This document shows, in pieces, positions 3,772 to 24,531 of a DNA stretch of 33,349 nt. Where the stretch lies: the IMG/VR virus record IMGVR_UViG_3300036823_000069, positions 1-33,349 of that record; one strand, written 5' to 3'. The notes below the pieces were generated by a model. The model saw nothing but the letters and a program-made list of their open reading frames with translations. It made no database searches and had not been told where the DNA came from. Source of the DNA: a virus. The position numbers and the translations under genes are program-made. Numbering within the stretch: the stretch's first letter is position 1; the number at the start of each line of letters is the position of its first letter.

Positions 3772-6700
3772 CGGCGTCCGATACCTCCGTACTGGCCAGT
3801 AGCCGCATTGACTGCCTGACTCATCCTCAAAGCCCCGCCGTTTCGCAGCCAGCTGTCCACGCTCGCACCATCCCAGGCTGTAATCGGAATGGTGAATCCG
3901 CCGCCCATGCTGGCTGGCACCATCCGCGAGCCTTGCGCGGCCGCTGGTGACACAGAGCGGCCGCTGTTGATCGCCTGAAGGAGTGCTCCATTGCCGGCCG
4001 CAGCGCCGTCATGCACCATGAATTCTCCGGCCTTGGCATGGATAAAGCCTTCCGTGGAGCTTGTACCGTAGTCACCGAAGTCACCGATCCAACCGCCTGT
4101 GTGGTACTGAGCCGCGCTCATGCCAACAAGCGAGCGGCCGTTCTTTTCTTCCGTTGCAATTTGCTGCTGGGCAGCCTGAATTTCGCTTAGGATGTGGCTC
4201 CGATACCAACTCGAAGCACCGCGGCCCCAAGTGCTGGTTTGCTGCTGTGCGCTTACTTGCAATTGGCTGAGATACTGCGTCGCCTGCTCGTAGCCCGTAG
4301 AGCCACTGTTGTACTGCTGCAGCTCGGCAGCTATGCCTGGTTGAATAGTTTTCGAGTCGTAGTCCTGTGCTTGACTCTTGCCCTGATCGCCAAAGACACC
4401 CGCCAGCAGCCCTGCAATGCCACCGACGACTGCGCCGATCGCCGTGCCTACGCCAGGGATGATACTGCCGACTGAAGCGCCGAGCATCGCTCCAGACAAA
4501 GCGCCACCGAGAGGATTGGAGTTTTGATAAGCGCTGTATACGCCGAGCGCACCGGTGATCGCTCCTCCAGCAGCTCCCAGATAGGGATTGCTGGCAGCGG
4601 CCGCAGTCCCCGTTGCAGAAGATCCAATTCCAGCCATCTCTCCAGTTCCTGTGACGCCCGTTCCGCCGCCAGACAAGGCATTACTTGTCGCCATGCCGCT
4701 GTACGATCCCATATCGGCGCCGCCATAGCCGAGGGAGAAATCAGAGCTGCTCGACGTCGATCCGCCATCACCCGCAGAGCCGCCGCCGAGGTTCGCAAAG
4801 GAGCCAAGTCCCGTGCCGCCACCTCCTGTTCCCATTCCGCCGCCGAAACCGCTTGTGCTCACGCTCTGCTGGAACATCTGCACTGCCGTCAGGAACGTCG
4901 AAGACGCCGTAGTCATCGTTGTGCTGGCCGTGGTGAACGTTGTTCCAGCCTGACTGATGGAAGACATCCCCGTGCCGCCTGCGCCGTGCCCACCCATGCC
5001 AAGGAGGCTCTTTCCAAATGTCTTTGGATCTGTCGAAGTCGAAGCCTGTCCGTTCATTCCGAAAAGCCAGCCGAGACCACCAACTACCGGATTGCTGCCG
5101 TCCTTTTGAAACAACTGCATCATCTCGTTGGCCGCGAACTGGAAGGCCGTGTCCATCGCCTTCTTTTCGATGAATTGCTCAGGATGCTGAAAGAAGCTCT
5201 GTAGCTGCGACGCGAGCTGGTCGCGCGTCTGCTGCATTTGCTTCGTCATCTGTGCCTGAGCTACAGCCGAAGCCGCGACCATCGTCGCGTTATATTCTGT
5301 CTGATCTATCTGCTGGTGATCGAGCGCCTCCTTGGCCTTGCGTACACGGTCGTTGTAGGTATCGGCTATCGCCATCTCTGCAGCCATCCAAGGCGGCAAG
5401 CTGTCGCGTGCGGCGAGCTCCTCCTCTTTAGTCAATGACTCCATCGTCTGCCTGTGCAGGCGCTCTCTCTGTTGATTGGCGTCGGCCTCTACCTCGACGA
5501 TCTTGCCCATAGACTGGGTGAACGCAAGAACGCTCGACAAGTCCATTGCGTCCATCTGCCCATAGGATTCCTGCCAGTGCTTGGTGATGTTGTTTATCCG
5601 CTCCTGGGCCTCAGAATCGATCTTTGCGTAACCTTCGAGTGAGCTGGTGTCATAGCTTTCGCCAAGTTGTGTCAGCTCTTCATAGAACTGTCTCTCTGCC
5701 TCAATTTGCTTCTCATTTCCAGCACTGGCAGCCGCGCCCCGCAAGGCCTGGTAGCTTGCCGATTGCTGCGGTGTTTCAACGCCACCCCGGCCTATAGCCT
5801 TTTTCTCTTCGTCGTCGATCGCTTGTATCGCGGCTGACATCTCCGCCTGAATTCGAGCAATCCCGGTCAACCCGGCAGCGGCAGCGTCGGCAGTGGCCTT
5901 GCGTACGCGTGCGTCCAGCTCATCCTGGCGCTTGATTGCATCGCCATCGGACTTCGCTCGGATCGCGGCGGTCTCGGCGACTTCGGCTTGCTTTGAGATC
6001 TCGCCCTGCTGAAACTTCCGGACCACTTCATCGATTGACTGCTGCTCTTGCGCAGCATACAAAGCGTTTCCTGTCAGGCTCGCGTCAATGGCCTCCTTCT
6101 GGAGGTGGAGAATCTCGTCATGTTCTTTTTGAGCCTGTTCGATGCGCTTTGCGCTCGTCTCGGCGAGTACGATAGCGTCTTTCTGATCCTGCATCGCGTT
6201 TCCTGCATTGCCCGGTGTCACATTGCCGTGCAGCTTGTCCTGCTGGACTCCAAAGCGCTGATTTTCCGCATTGATCTGCAACTGTTTCTGCATCTCTGCC
6301 GTGATTGCAGCTTCGCCCTTTAGCCTGGCGTCTGAGGCGTGCTGCAGCTCGATTGCGCCCAGGTTCAATTCGTGCTGATCGGCTACCTGTTTCGGCTTAA
6401 GAGCATCCGCTTGCTCTTGCTTCACATTGCCCGCATCAGCCATCTTCCGAGCACCAAAAGTATCCATAATTGCGGCCTGCAGGCCACCCATCAGGCCTCC
6501 TGAGCTAGCTCCATTTCCGACATCACTGAAAAGGCCACCGTGCATCTGCTGAGCTAAAGCTTGGAGCTGCTGTGCAGATTTCGTAGCCTCGATAATCCTA
6601 GCGTTGGCAGTCTCGATCGAATGGGTGTTGATGAAATCCTCACCCTTCGTCTTTTCGATTTGCTTCTGGTACTCCTCTGCGGCACCGCTCAGGTCCAAAT

Positions 6701-21193: not shown

Positions 21194-21409
21194 TCAGCTC
21201 GGAGGCAAACCTGGAACATTCCCACCCGGCAGACCAGGAGGTTTGGGCGGGTCGGGCTTGCAGCATGGCGGTCCACCTGGTCCTAACCAGCAGCATCCGC
21301 CCGGAGGTGCCGTATCCGGCTTCGGCTGAGGCTTCGGTTGTGTGGACTGGGCATCGCTCAAACAAACAGAGCAGGCCACGATGAAGATGAGCGTGTAGAG
21401 CTTTTTCAC
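21194..21409 (-). CDS. Secreted Pro/Cys-rich small protein
   Basis: 71 residues from a GTG at 21409 with AAGGAGG four bases upstream; GTGA overlaps the previous stop. The N-terminus (MKKLYTLIFIVACSVCLSDA) is a signal peptide, probably cut after SDA (or lipidated at a Cys). The mature part is half proline and glycine with Cys-Cys pairs (GGCCWLGPGG, GPPCCKPDPP) and a PGLPGGNVPGLPPS tail. No known family. Low-complexity exported proteins in lysis cassettes include Rz1-like outer-membrane spanins, which are Pro-rich lipoproteins; this is a loose comparison. Confidence 0.6.
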   Translation of the reverse strand: MKKLYTLIFIVACSVCLSDAQSTQPKPQPKPDTAPPGGCCWLGPGGPPCCKPDPPKPPGLPGGNVPGLPPS

Positions 21410-21810
21410 TTTTCCTCCTTGGCAAAATCCCGTACATCCACGCATGTTGCAAAGCAGGCCTTGCACAGCTCATGCTCCGCCGCGTCTTCATACACCTGTC
21501 CAGAGATCGGCTCCCCGCATCCTTCGCATTCGGTGGCGTCGTCGACATCCTCAGCGCTGGATTCATCCGGCAGAGAGAGGAGAGCGCCCATGACACTCTC
21601 GTCGACAAAATCCGCGACCTTCTCCTGCGCCTGGGAAAGCAGGATTACAGCCTCGGTCAGATGCACATGCGCACCTGCTTCCTCCACGGCCAGCTTGGCG
21701 GCGCGAATCGCCAGCTCGGCCGGAACCATCAGATCAACTCGGCAGCGGCGCGGAATGCCGGCACAGCAGACCGGCTGGATGGCTGGCTGAACTGTCCTCG
21801 TCGTCGGCAT
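21406..21810 (-). CDS. Zinc-ribbon protein (DksA/TraR-like C-terminus)
   Basis: 134 residues; ATG at 21810 in a TGATG junction with GGAGG upstream. Residues about 30-75 form helices (AELAIRAAKLAVEEAGAH; ILLSQAQEKVADFVDE). The C-terminal part has CEGCGEPI ... CKACFATCVDV, a C4 zinc ribbon like that of TraR/DksA-type proteins, which Mu-like phages often encode here. The N-terminal Cys cluster (VCCAGIPRRCR) is additional. If DksA-like, it could alter RNA polymerase activity during infection; the DxxDxA-type acidic tip is not clearly seen. Confidence 0.6.
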   Translation of the reverse strand: MPTTRTVQPAIQPVCCAGIPRRCRVDLMVPAELAIRAAKLAVEEAGAHVHLTEAVILLSQAQEKVADFVDESVMGALLSLPDESSAEDVDDATECEGCGEPISGQVYEDAAEHELCKACFATCVDVRDFAKEEK

Positions 21811-22181
21811 CACTTACCCCTCCGCCTGTGAACCGATGCAGCCCCCGCCAAATACCGCTGCAGCGTATCCAGCGCTTTAATCTGTGGCCGCATGCCAGTC
21901 AAGGCCGCGTCCGTCTGGCGCAGCTGCGCATCGTTGAGCGCCCCGATCTGCCGCCAGATGGGCCACAGCTCCGCAACGATCATGGTCAACACGGCCGGAT
22001 CAGTCGTTTGCCGAAACTGCGCCTGCAGATCTGCGTAGCGAACTTCAAGCGCGGCGCGGTCCGACTCCTGGACCTCAACGGCCTGAGCGAAGCATTCGCG
22101 GCCGCTGCCGCATCCCTGGGCCAGCAACACGCCGAGCAGCAATGAACGCGTGAGCAACGCACATAAATTTATGTGCTTCAA
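21810..22181 (-). CDS. Exported helical protein, possible lipoprotein
   Basis: 123 residues from a TTG at 22181 that overlaps the upstream TGA (TTGA), with GGGAGG seven bases before it. The longer frame to 22322 overlaps the hairpin-domain gene and has no ribosome site. N-terminal LLTRSLLLGVLLAQGC is a signal sequence with a degenerate lipobox at Cys24. The mature part is helical, with Gln/Ala-rich amphipathic helices (DRAALEVRYADLQAQFRQ; WRQIGALNDAQLRQT). Possible spanin or envelope factor; not recognised. Confidence 0.6.
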   Translation of the reverse strand: MKHINLCALLTRSLLLGVLLAQGCGSGRECFAQAVEVQESDRAALEVRYADLQAQFRQTTDPAVLTMIVAELWPIWRQIGALNDAQLRQTDAALTGMRPQIKALDTLQRYLAGAASVHRRRGK

Positions 22182-22525
22182 TTTCGCCCCTCCCGAACGA
22201 TGGCGGCATTCGCCCACATCCTTGATTCCCGCAGACACCGCATAGCGGCGCTTCTGTCCGCCGACGCTGGACCGCTCTGAAGAATGACCCGAGCCGTCTG
22301 GAGAAAGGCCTCCCTTACGCAAGCCAGAGCAACCTGCTGCTCTGAAGTCGGAGAGTGGTAAGCAAAGCAGTCATCGAGCCACGCTTGATCCCCGTCCGAG
22401 ATCGGGCCGGGCTCGGCGATCCTGCGAAGCGCGACCAACTCCAGAGCCTGCTTTTCTGTGGCATTCACGAGTCTGCGGTTCTCGGTCAGAGCGTCCACAT
22501 AAATCTGTCGTTCGTCTTCGGTCAC
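22178..22525 (-). CDS. Acb2/Tad1 hairpin-domain protein (candidate anti-CBASS/Thoeris sponge)
   Basis: 115 residues from a GTG at 22525 with GAGGGGG six bases before it. Residues about 53-113 follow the Acb2/Tad1 hairpin family closely: an FAYHSPTSEQ start, a first helix (ACVREAFLQTARVIL), a Pro-Ala-Ser-Ala-Asp turn, and a second helix (ALRCLRE-like, here AAMRCLRESRMWANAAI) ending in the Trp-Ala-Asn-Ala-Ala-Ile signature. In characterised Acb2 and Tad1 proteins this hairpin binds cyclic oligonucleotides or gcADPR and blocks CBASS or Thoeris signalling. Residues 1-50 are an extra helical arm. Sponge activity here is inferred from the motif. Confidence 0.72.
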   Translation of the reverse strand: MTEDERQIYVDALTENRRLVNATEKQALELVALRRIAEPGPISDGDQAWLDDCFAYHSPTSEQQVALACVREAFLQTARVILQSGPASADRSAAMRCLRESRMWANAAIVREGRN

Positions 22526-22544
22526 TCGATCCCCCTCGTTAAGG

Positions 22545-22579
22545 CTCTGGCGTCCGGCAAGTTCGCTCGGACGCCAGAG
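22545..22579 (-). promoter_or_regulatory. Perfect 12-bp hairpin in the leader of the hairpin-domain gene
   Basis: CTCTGGCGTCCG at 22545-22556 pairs with CGGACGCCAGAG at 22568-22579 around an 11-base loop. The stem ends 20 bases before the GTG start, next to its ribosome site (22530-22536). No T-run follows, so it is not a simple terminator. It could control translation or end a partly terminated transcript. Confidence 0.6.
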
Positions 22580-22689
22580 GTGTTGGTTGAGTTACCCAGG
22601 TAAGCGGCCTCTCGAACAATCCCCGCAATGGGGCGAGCAGGACTATCTCCGATCTGGGACCGTTCGCTTCTGTCGTTGTATGTCGAGTG

Positions 22690-23660: not shown

Positions 23661-24455
23661 TCATGGCGCAATAGGATAGTTAGCGATTAGAACTTCCGGC
23701 GACGGATTGTTACGCGAAGGAGTCGTCGACGCGAGCGTGTATTGAACCGATACCGGTTTCACAATGAAACCGGCCTCCGCAGCTCTCTTGCGAACCTCGG
23801 GATGATCGTCGAAGCTCATCAGGAATTTTCCCTTCAGCCGAGACAGCAGCTTGAACAGTTCGCCGCGCCTCAGTTCCGGCAACGGCTCGTATCGCCCATT
23901 GGCCTGGAACTCGACGTAAGGTGGATCAAGATAGAAGAAGCTTTCCTTGCCATCGTAGCGAGTCAGGATCTCCGCGAAGTCCCGCTGCTCGATCAGAACC
24001 GCACTGAGTCTTTTAGCAATCTCAGTGAGCAGGTCGCGGACGCGGCCGAGCGGACGCCGCATCCTGGTCGACTTGGCGGAGCTGCTGGCGAAGTGCTCTC
24101 CCTTGGCTCCGAACGAATACCAGGCCAGGTAGGCAAAGCGTAGTGCACGTTCGACCTCACATGCTGCAGCTCCCACCGACTGCAGATCCCGCAGCTCGCG
24201 AAAGCGCCCGGCGTGAATGCATTCAAGTTCCAGGCGCTCAGCCAGTTCCGATGGACGGTGCTTGGCTACGCGGAAGAAGTTGGTTACCTCTCCATTGAGA
24301 TCGTTGAGAATTTCGAAGCGGGTTGGAGTCTTCGCGAACAACAACTTCGCACTTCCGGCAAATACCTCGACATACATCGAATGCGCCGGCATCAGCTTCA
24401 GCAATGTGGGCGTGAGGGCTCGTTTTCCCCCAGGCCATGCAAAGGCAGATTTCAT
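23661..24455 (-). CDS. DNA adenine-N6 methyltransferase (class D12, Dam-like)
   Basis: 265 residues from the ATG at 24455; an extension to 24509 is unlikely as it enters the divergent promoter region. Motifs: FAWPGGKRAL at 5-14 (S-adenosylmethionine-binding Trp-x-Gly-Gly-Lys), VEVFAGSAKLLF at 29-40 (motif I) and LDPPYVEF at 176-183 (catalytic DPPY). The target-recognition region lies between about 85 and 160. No restriction partner is encoded, so it probably protects phage DNA from host restriction or regulates phage genes. Specificity (GATC or other) cannot be read from sequence. Confidence 0.93.
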   Translation of the reverse strand: MKSAFAWPGGKRALTPTLLKLMPAHSMYVEVFAGSAKLLFAKTPTRFEILNDLNGEVTNFFRVAKHRPSELAERLELECIHAGRFRELRDLQSVGAAACEVERALRFAYLAWYSFGAKGEHFASSSAKSTRMRRPLGRVRDLLTEIAKRLSAVLIEQRDFAEILTRYDGKESFFYLDPPYVEFQANGRYEPLPELRRGELFKLLSRLKGKFLMSFDDHPEVRKRAAEAGFIVKPVSVQYTLASTTPSRNNPSPEVLIANYPIAP

Positions 24456-24531
24456 GCCGTCATCATCTCTCGCAACTAAGGCGAAGACAAGGCGAATTAT
24501 TTTGTACAATTCAGGAGTGCATCGGGTCTAC
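24456..24531. promoter_or_regulatory. Divergent intergenic region with TTGTACAA palindrome
   Basis: 76 bases separate the methyltransferase start (minus) from the small gene at 24532 (plus). TTGTACAA at 24502-24509 is palindromic and includes TACAAT, a possible -10 box for the plus strand. No good -35 is seen. AGGAG at 24513-24517 is followed by an overlapping GTG and, 14 bases on, by the ATG. Confidence 0.35.

Follow-up and report, generated by a model that had tools for sequence, protein, structure and literature searches.

The window analysed here, a 33,349-base virus record, encodes on its minus strand a 115-residue protein whose membership of the Acb2/Tad1 hairpin family (PF24729) is well supported and which, judged from its sequence, is a plausible anti-defence sponge. 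Acb2 forms hexamers, sequesters cyclic di- and trinucleotides and acts as an inhibitor of CBASS. We think it probable that the acb2-like protein of the window is a late-made, oligomeric sponge of Acb2 architecture for CBASS-type cyclic oligonucleotide signals, which would keep effectors off until lysis. The acb2-like gene and its surroundings comprise the following features.

21810..22181, minus strand: downstream lipoprotein-like gene (from the sequence; a relative lies in L123)
22178..22525, minus strand: acb2-like ORF, 115 aa, GTG start (translation; PF24729 and phrog_1454 matches)
22193..22363, minus strand: Acb2/Tad1 hairpin domain, residues 55-111 (PF24729 match; AlphaFold2 (AF2) helices 61-84 and 89-111)
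22367..22525, minus strand: N-terminal extension, residues 1-53 (AF2: long helix 3-37, short helix 44-53)
22531..22537, minus strand: Shine-Dalgarno (SD) sequence GAGGGGG, 5 bases before the GTG at 22525
22545..22660, minus strand: structured RNA leader, made of the P1 stem, the conserved linker AACTCAACCAAC and the GC-rich hairpin P2
22654-22658 with 22595-22599, minus strand: leader stem P1 (RNAalifold)
22545-22556 with 22568-22579, minus strand: GC-rich leader hairpin P2
22762..23463, minus strand: upstream lipoprotein-like gene, conserved among several of the related phages
23661..24509, minus strand: D12-class adenine DNA methyltransferase (Pfam E 2.4e-21), at the edge of the cassette that holds the acb2-like gene

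The ORF carries the motifs FAYHSPT (residues 54-60) and MWANAAI (residues 103-109), which an earlier sequence-only reading had pointed out at this place. No start codon in frame with it lies further upstream, and because the GTG is preceded by a strong SD the long N-terminal part of the protein is very probably translated. The codon-position GC of the ORF follows a pattern that broadly resembles that of the neighbouring genes.

In the Pfam search the protein matched the PF24729 model "Acb2/Tad1, hairpin domain" over residues 55-111 with an E value of 8.9e-9 and 35.9 bits, above the curated gathering score of 27 bits and across the full model (positions 1-58 of 58); the same search at whole-record level gave 37 bits. 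Such a profile match had been set beforehand as a test of the sequence-only reading, and it was obtained. The PHROG search matched phrog_1454 (E 3.8e-12), which carries no assigned function in the PHROG library. At the level of sequence these matches to the Acb2/Tad1 family are far beyond chance. As a positive control, the PF24729 model recognised T4 Vs.4/Acb2 (E 7e-20) and PaMx33 p26/Acb2 (E 2e-18), both experimentally established as Acb2, and the relatives tested with the model were likewise recognised. Relatives of the acb2-like protein are encoded on at least 349 viral stretches, and those inspected are mostly about 68-75 residues long, scarcely more than the hairpin. In kind the protein is an ordinary family member. 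PF24729/phrog_1454 proteins of Gordonia, Paenibacillus, Mycobacterium, Lactococcus 1706 and Tunturiibacter phages have the same domain with about 30-44% identity; they are mostly about 68-75 aa in length and lack the long arm, and are annotated as hypothetical in most records. Two scans of bacterial genomes, with the acb2-like protein and the transposase as queries, returned no relatives.

When the single protein was run against the PDB with phmmer only chance-level matches were obtained, so that a profile was required for this search. We built an alignment and profile from 61 sequences of the family and compared it with all PDB sequences. The top ranks were taken by Acb2 homolog 43 (2e-4), Tad1 (0.05) and T4 Vs.4/Acb2 (0.08), among which homolog 43 alone is significant by itself. 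It is telling that known sponges or homologues of them fill all three ranks.

The collected relatives include some unusual members. Four divergent relatives (L005 6001-6105, L006 6001-6105, L007 1097-1198 and L004 2394-2618) retain the second helix (RMWANAAIVFDG) and have NPMQYID or NPMEYID in place of the FxYHxP motif, with loss of the conserved His and Pro; judged from their sequences they possibly have a different ligand or function. At L018 2986-3558 the hairpin domain carries a fused C-terminal domain, about 120 residues long, with only a weak AraC-binding/cupin hint (E 0.05).

AlphaFold2 supplied with the 61-sequence alignment predicted the fold of the protein with a mean pLDDT of 94.6, whereas the single-sequence model reached 52.8 and was discarded. 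The model is all-helical, with no strands. Residues 3-37 form one helix and residues 44-53 a short second one; helices 61-84 and 89-111 then make up an antiparallel hairpin, which reaches a pLDDT of 96-98 in ten-residue blocks across residues 61-110. Both the intervening hairpin and the N-terminal helical arm that had been expected from the sequence are therefore present in the model, although the "helix-turn-helix" of that reading is here a helical hairpin and not a DNA-binding HTH. In the published Acb2 protomer a short helix precedes two long antiparallel ones, whereas Tad1 has an N-terminal antiparallel beta-sheet instead (PMC12043709). With helix 44-53 ahead of the hairpin and no beta-sheet, the model matches the Acb2 architecture, helix 3-37 being additional; Tad1 membership was rejected on the missing beta-sheet, and the protein is Acb2-like rather than Tad1-like. 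Foldseek against the PDB returned T4 Vs.4 with cGAMP as its first match (probability 0.85, E 1.0) and Tad1 at ranks 4 and 5, with E values of at least 1 for these matches. VIA-align placed model residues 49-115 on T4 Vs.4 residues 1-86 (Z 6.8) in a register that agrees with Y56 at T4 Y8, and in a viral structure library the top matches were nearly all annotated Acb2/Tad1 hairpin proteins. Short helical hairpins are common folds, and as unrelated hairpins score nearly as well, the predicted fold supports the Acb2 case and does not carry it: taken alone, the similarity of the model to Acb2 is weak evidence.

The N-terminal arm is predicted as a single, partly amphipathic helix of 35 residues (3-37), for which sequence searches found no convincing relatives. 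The matches in L098 and L099, a P-loop-type protein sharing mainly ELVALRRI, were judged to be chance and rejected, and the long tblastn matches in L058, L059 and L082 are interrupted by stop codons and do not represent homologues of the arm. The extra helix probably adds contacts within an oligomer or to another protein.

We compared the protein with the solved members of the family. T4 Acb2 (Vs.4, 7uq2) and PaMx33 Acb2 (p26, 8h2j/8ixz) belong to the same Pfam hairpin family as the window protein and, like it, have a short helix ahead of the hairpin, and the MW motif of T4 Acb2 is present in it. The hairpin of the window protein is about 20 residues shorter than theirs, however, the long N-terminal helix is additional, and identity in the structural alignment is about 16-18%. 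Acb2 homolog 43 (9ptq, 76 aa, six chains in the entry), the best profile match in the PDB, is a short, hairpin-only form which, unlike the window protein, has no N-terminal arm and whose second helix is of the RE...T...E type. Tad1 (7uav, 8kbb) has a motif like ASADRSAAMRCLRESRMWAN in the second hairpin helix, including the Asn that corresponds to N106.

The register of the T4 and PaMx33 residues was taken from the profile alignment to the PDB, in two segments that are each gapless. In this alignment Y56 corresponds to the binding Tyr of both proteins (T4 Y8, PaMx33 Y11), which fits the structural register, and the Tyr is kept in 60 of the 61 sequences. R71 stands where T4 has K23 and PaMx33 K26, a change from Lys to Arg; it is kept in 54/61, and we take PaMx33 K26 to be a position that matters for ligand binding. 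Y8A in T4 Acb2 abolishes cyclic-dinucleotide binding (PMC12657218; PMC12657230). R96 is aligned with T68 of T4 and T74 of PaMx33; T4 T68M is described as lowering binding (PMC12657230). V110 is aligned with T4 F82 and PaMx33 A88, so that PaMx33 Acb2 likewise lacks a Phe here; F82C was found in a phage escaping Panoptes (PMC12657218). Across the 61 sequences position 96 is Arg in 49 and Thr in 12, and position 99 (R99 in the window protein) is Arg in 49 and Glu in 12. In the aligned chains of solved Acb2 and Tad1 structures the position equivalent to R96 is Thr, and solved members have Glu or Lys at that of R99. By its sequence the acb2-like protein sits in this Arg-type branch, which makes up the bulk of the collected relatives, and PDB sequence and structure searches found no solved member of the branch. 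Nearly or fully invariant in the alignment are F54, Y56, H57, P59, Q63, P86, E100, M103, A105, N106 and A107; W104 is shared by 17/61 sequences, most Arg-type sequences having Thr.

The window derives from a Mu-like phage: it has transposition genes of the MuA/MuB type together with Mu-type portal, terminase and tail genes. Its portal gene is common to 57 related contigs, whose backbone runs from a repressor, a small membrane protein, an optional D12 methyltransferase and a variable cassette to conserved genes leading to the terminase. In relatives the cassette contains lysozyme, spanin-like, membrane and PLD-like genes. Among the 57 contigs, some of which end short of the cassette, the hairpin gene was found only in L127, L128 and L154. 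There it lies in the same cassette, with the portal gene about 5 kb downstream of it, but at a sub-position other than that in the window, and the idea of a single fixed slot was therefore rejected. A search for recurring neighbours of family members found no constant partner gene. Sporadic occurrence within a variable cassette fits an accessory (anti-defence) gene. A point against the sponge reading is that in the late lysis cassette of the window we found no recognised anti-defence gene beside the acb2-like gene, save possibly the methyltransferase. The position in the operon suggests late expression, and according to a review Acb2 acts during induction and not lysogenic maintenance (PMC12043709).

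By eye, the genes on both sides start with hydrophobic, lipobox-like signal sequences, in line with the exported neighbours that had been proposed. The downstream lipoprotein-like gene starts at a TTG (22181) that shares bases with the stop codon of the acb2-like gene (TTGA), and its own SD, GGAGGGG, is located inside the acb2-like gene, so that translational coupling of the two genes is probable. Just past the stop codon (22159-22176), in the first codons of the coupled gene, lies a perfect 18-base palindrome, GCACATAAATTTATGTGC, which is operator- or hairpin-like. The same operon encodes a small protein (21406-21813, minus strand) with a zinc-finger-like CxxC...CxxC C-terminus, for which no family scored above cut-off. 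Within the L123 lysis cassette an apparently exported PLD-like protein (4762-5346; PF13091, E 1.3e-11) was observed, with similar frames in L116, L142 and L146, an unusual cargo beside lysozyme and spanin-like genes.

The 3' end of the RNA leader lies about 20 bases upstream of the acb2-like start. Among the sequences collected, the leader is also present in 16 further distinct phage sequences, including the following copies.

L102: 5050-5135
L113: 2385-2505
L124: 4330-4435
L135: 4885-4985
L142: 4225-4368
L147: 4130-4265
L148: 2730-2832
L150: 2900-3045
further loci: L158, L160, L162, L163 and L166

RNAalifold on 15 sequences predicted 21 pairs, 17 of them with compensatory changes, and independently recovered the P1 strands, which we had first chosen by eye. 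No Rfam family matched the leader at gathering threshold. In most relatives the gene that follows it is a different one, of about 83 aa (VTFSSISRLRYHAVRARIRAQ), in L102 it is yet another, and the leader was not found at the hairpin-gene loci of L127, L128 and L154. Standing ahead of different genes across Mu-like phages, it looks like an undescribed leader that acts in cis on a slot with exchangeable genes.

We propose that the acb2-like protein would be produced late, from the lysis/accessory operon of the Mu-like phage, and that its hairpin would drive assembly into a small oligomer. This oligomer would bind, without cleaving them, cyclic oligonucleotide alarm signals from host CBASS-type defences, and with the signals sequestered the effectors would stay off before lysis. 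The candidate sponge of the sequence-only reading is supported by the family match and the predicted Acb2 protomer fold, with the qualifications that the beta-sheet of Tad1 is absent and that one ligand-site position differs from the solved sponges compared. The replacement of the Thr and Glu/Lys of solved members by R96 and R99 raises another reading, a sponge for a different signal (for instance one of gcADPR type, a larger cyclic oligonucleotide or some other metabolite rich in phosphate) that would counter Thoeris, type III CRISPR or some other system and not CBASS. With Arg in 49/61 at each position the change is conserved and is therefore not decay, and extra Arg by the pocket would suit more phosphates. 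The Tyr and the hairpin motifs are unchanged, however, and solved Acb2 and Tad1 already bind several ligands (PMC12043709), so that a change at one position need not shift the ligand class; we hold this alternative to be unlikely.

The protein might instead have a structural or regulatory role in the lysis/late cassette, as a hairpin protein without nucleotide binding. The gene lies between lipoprotein-like genes and is probably coupled to one, the family member of L128 is found between a lysozyme and a spanin-like gene, and a partly amphipathic arm could bind a partner. Against this, F54, Y56, H57, P59, Q63, R71, E100 and N106 are nearly invariant despite quite different neighbours, which fits a shared ligand over local partners, and we consider such a role very unlikely. 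The chance that the frame is accidental or decayed is negligible; we excluded it on the Pfam and PHROG matches, the strong SD, the neighbour-like codon-position GC and the intact conserved motifs. A wider proposal, to which we give only a low probability, is that the Arg-type branch would be a separate sponge class for a different signal, that the arm of the window protein would alter assembly or tether a partner, and that the structured RNA leader would serve interchangeable genes.

Sponges help determine whether CBASS, Thoeris and Panoptes defences succeed. The window shows that an uncultivated Mu-like phage has a member of the hairpin family in its late cassette, and points to a numerous branch of this family with Arg at a position where each solved homologue compared has Thr.
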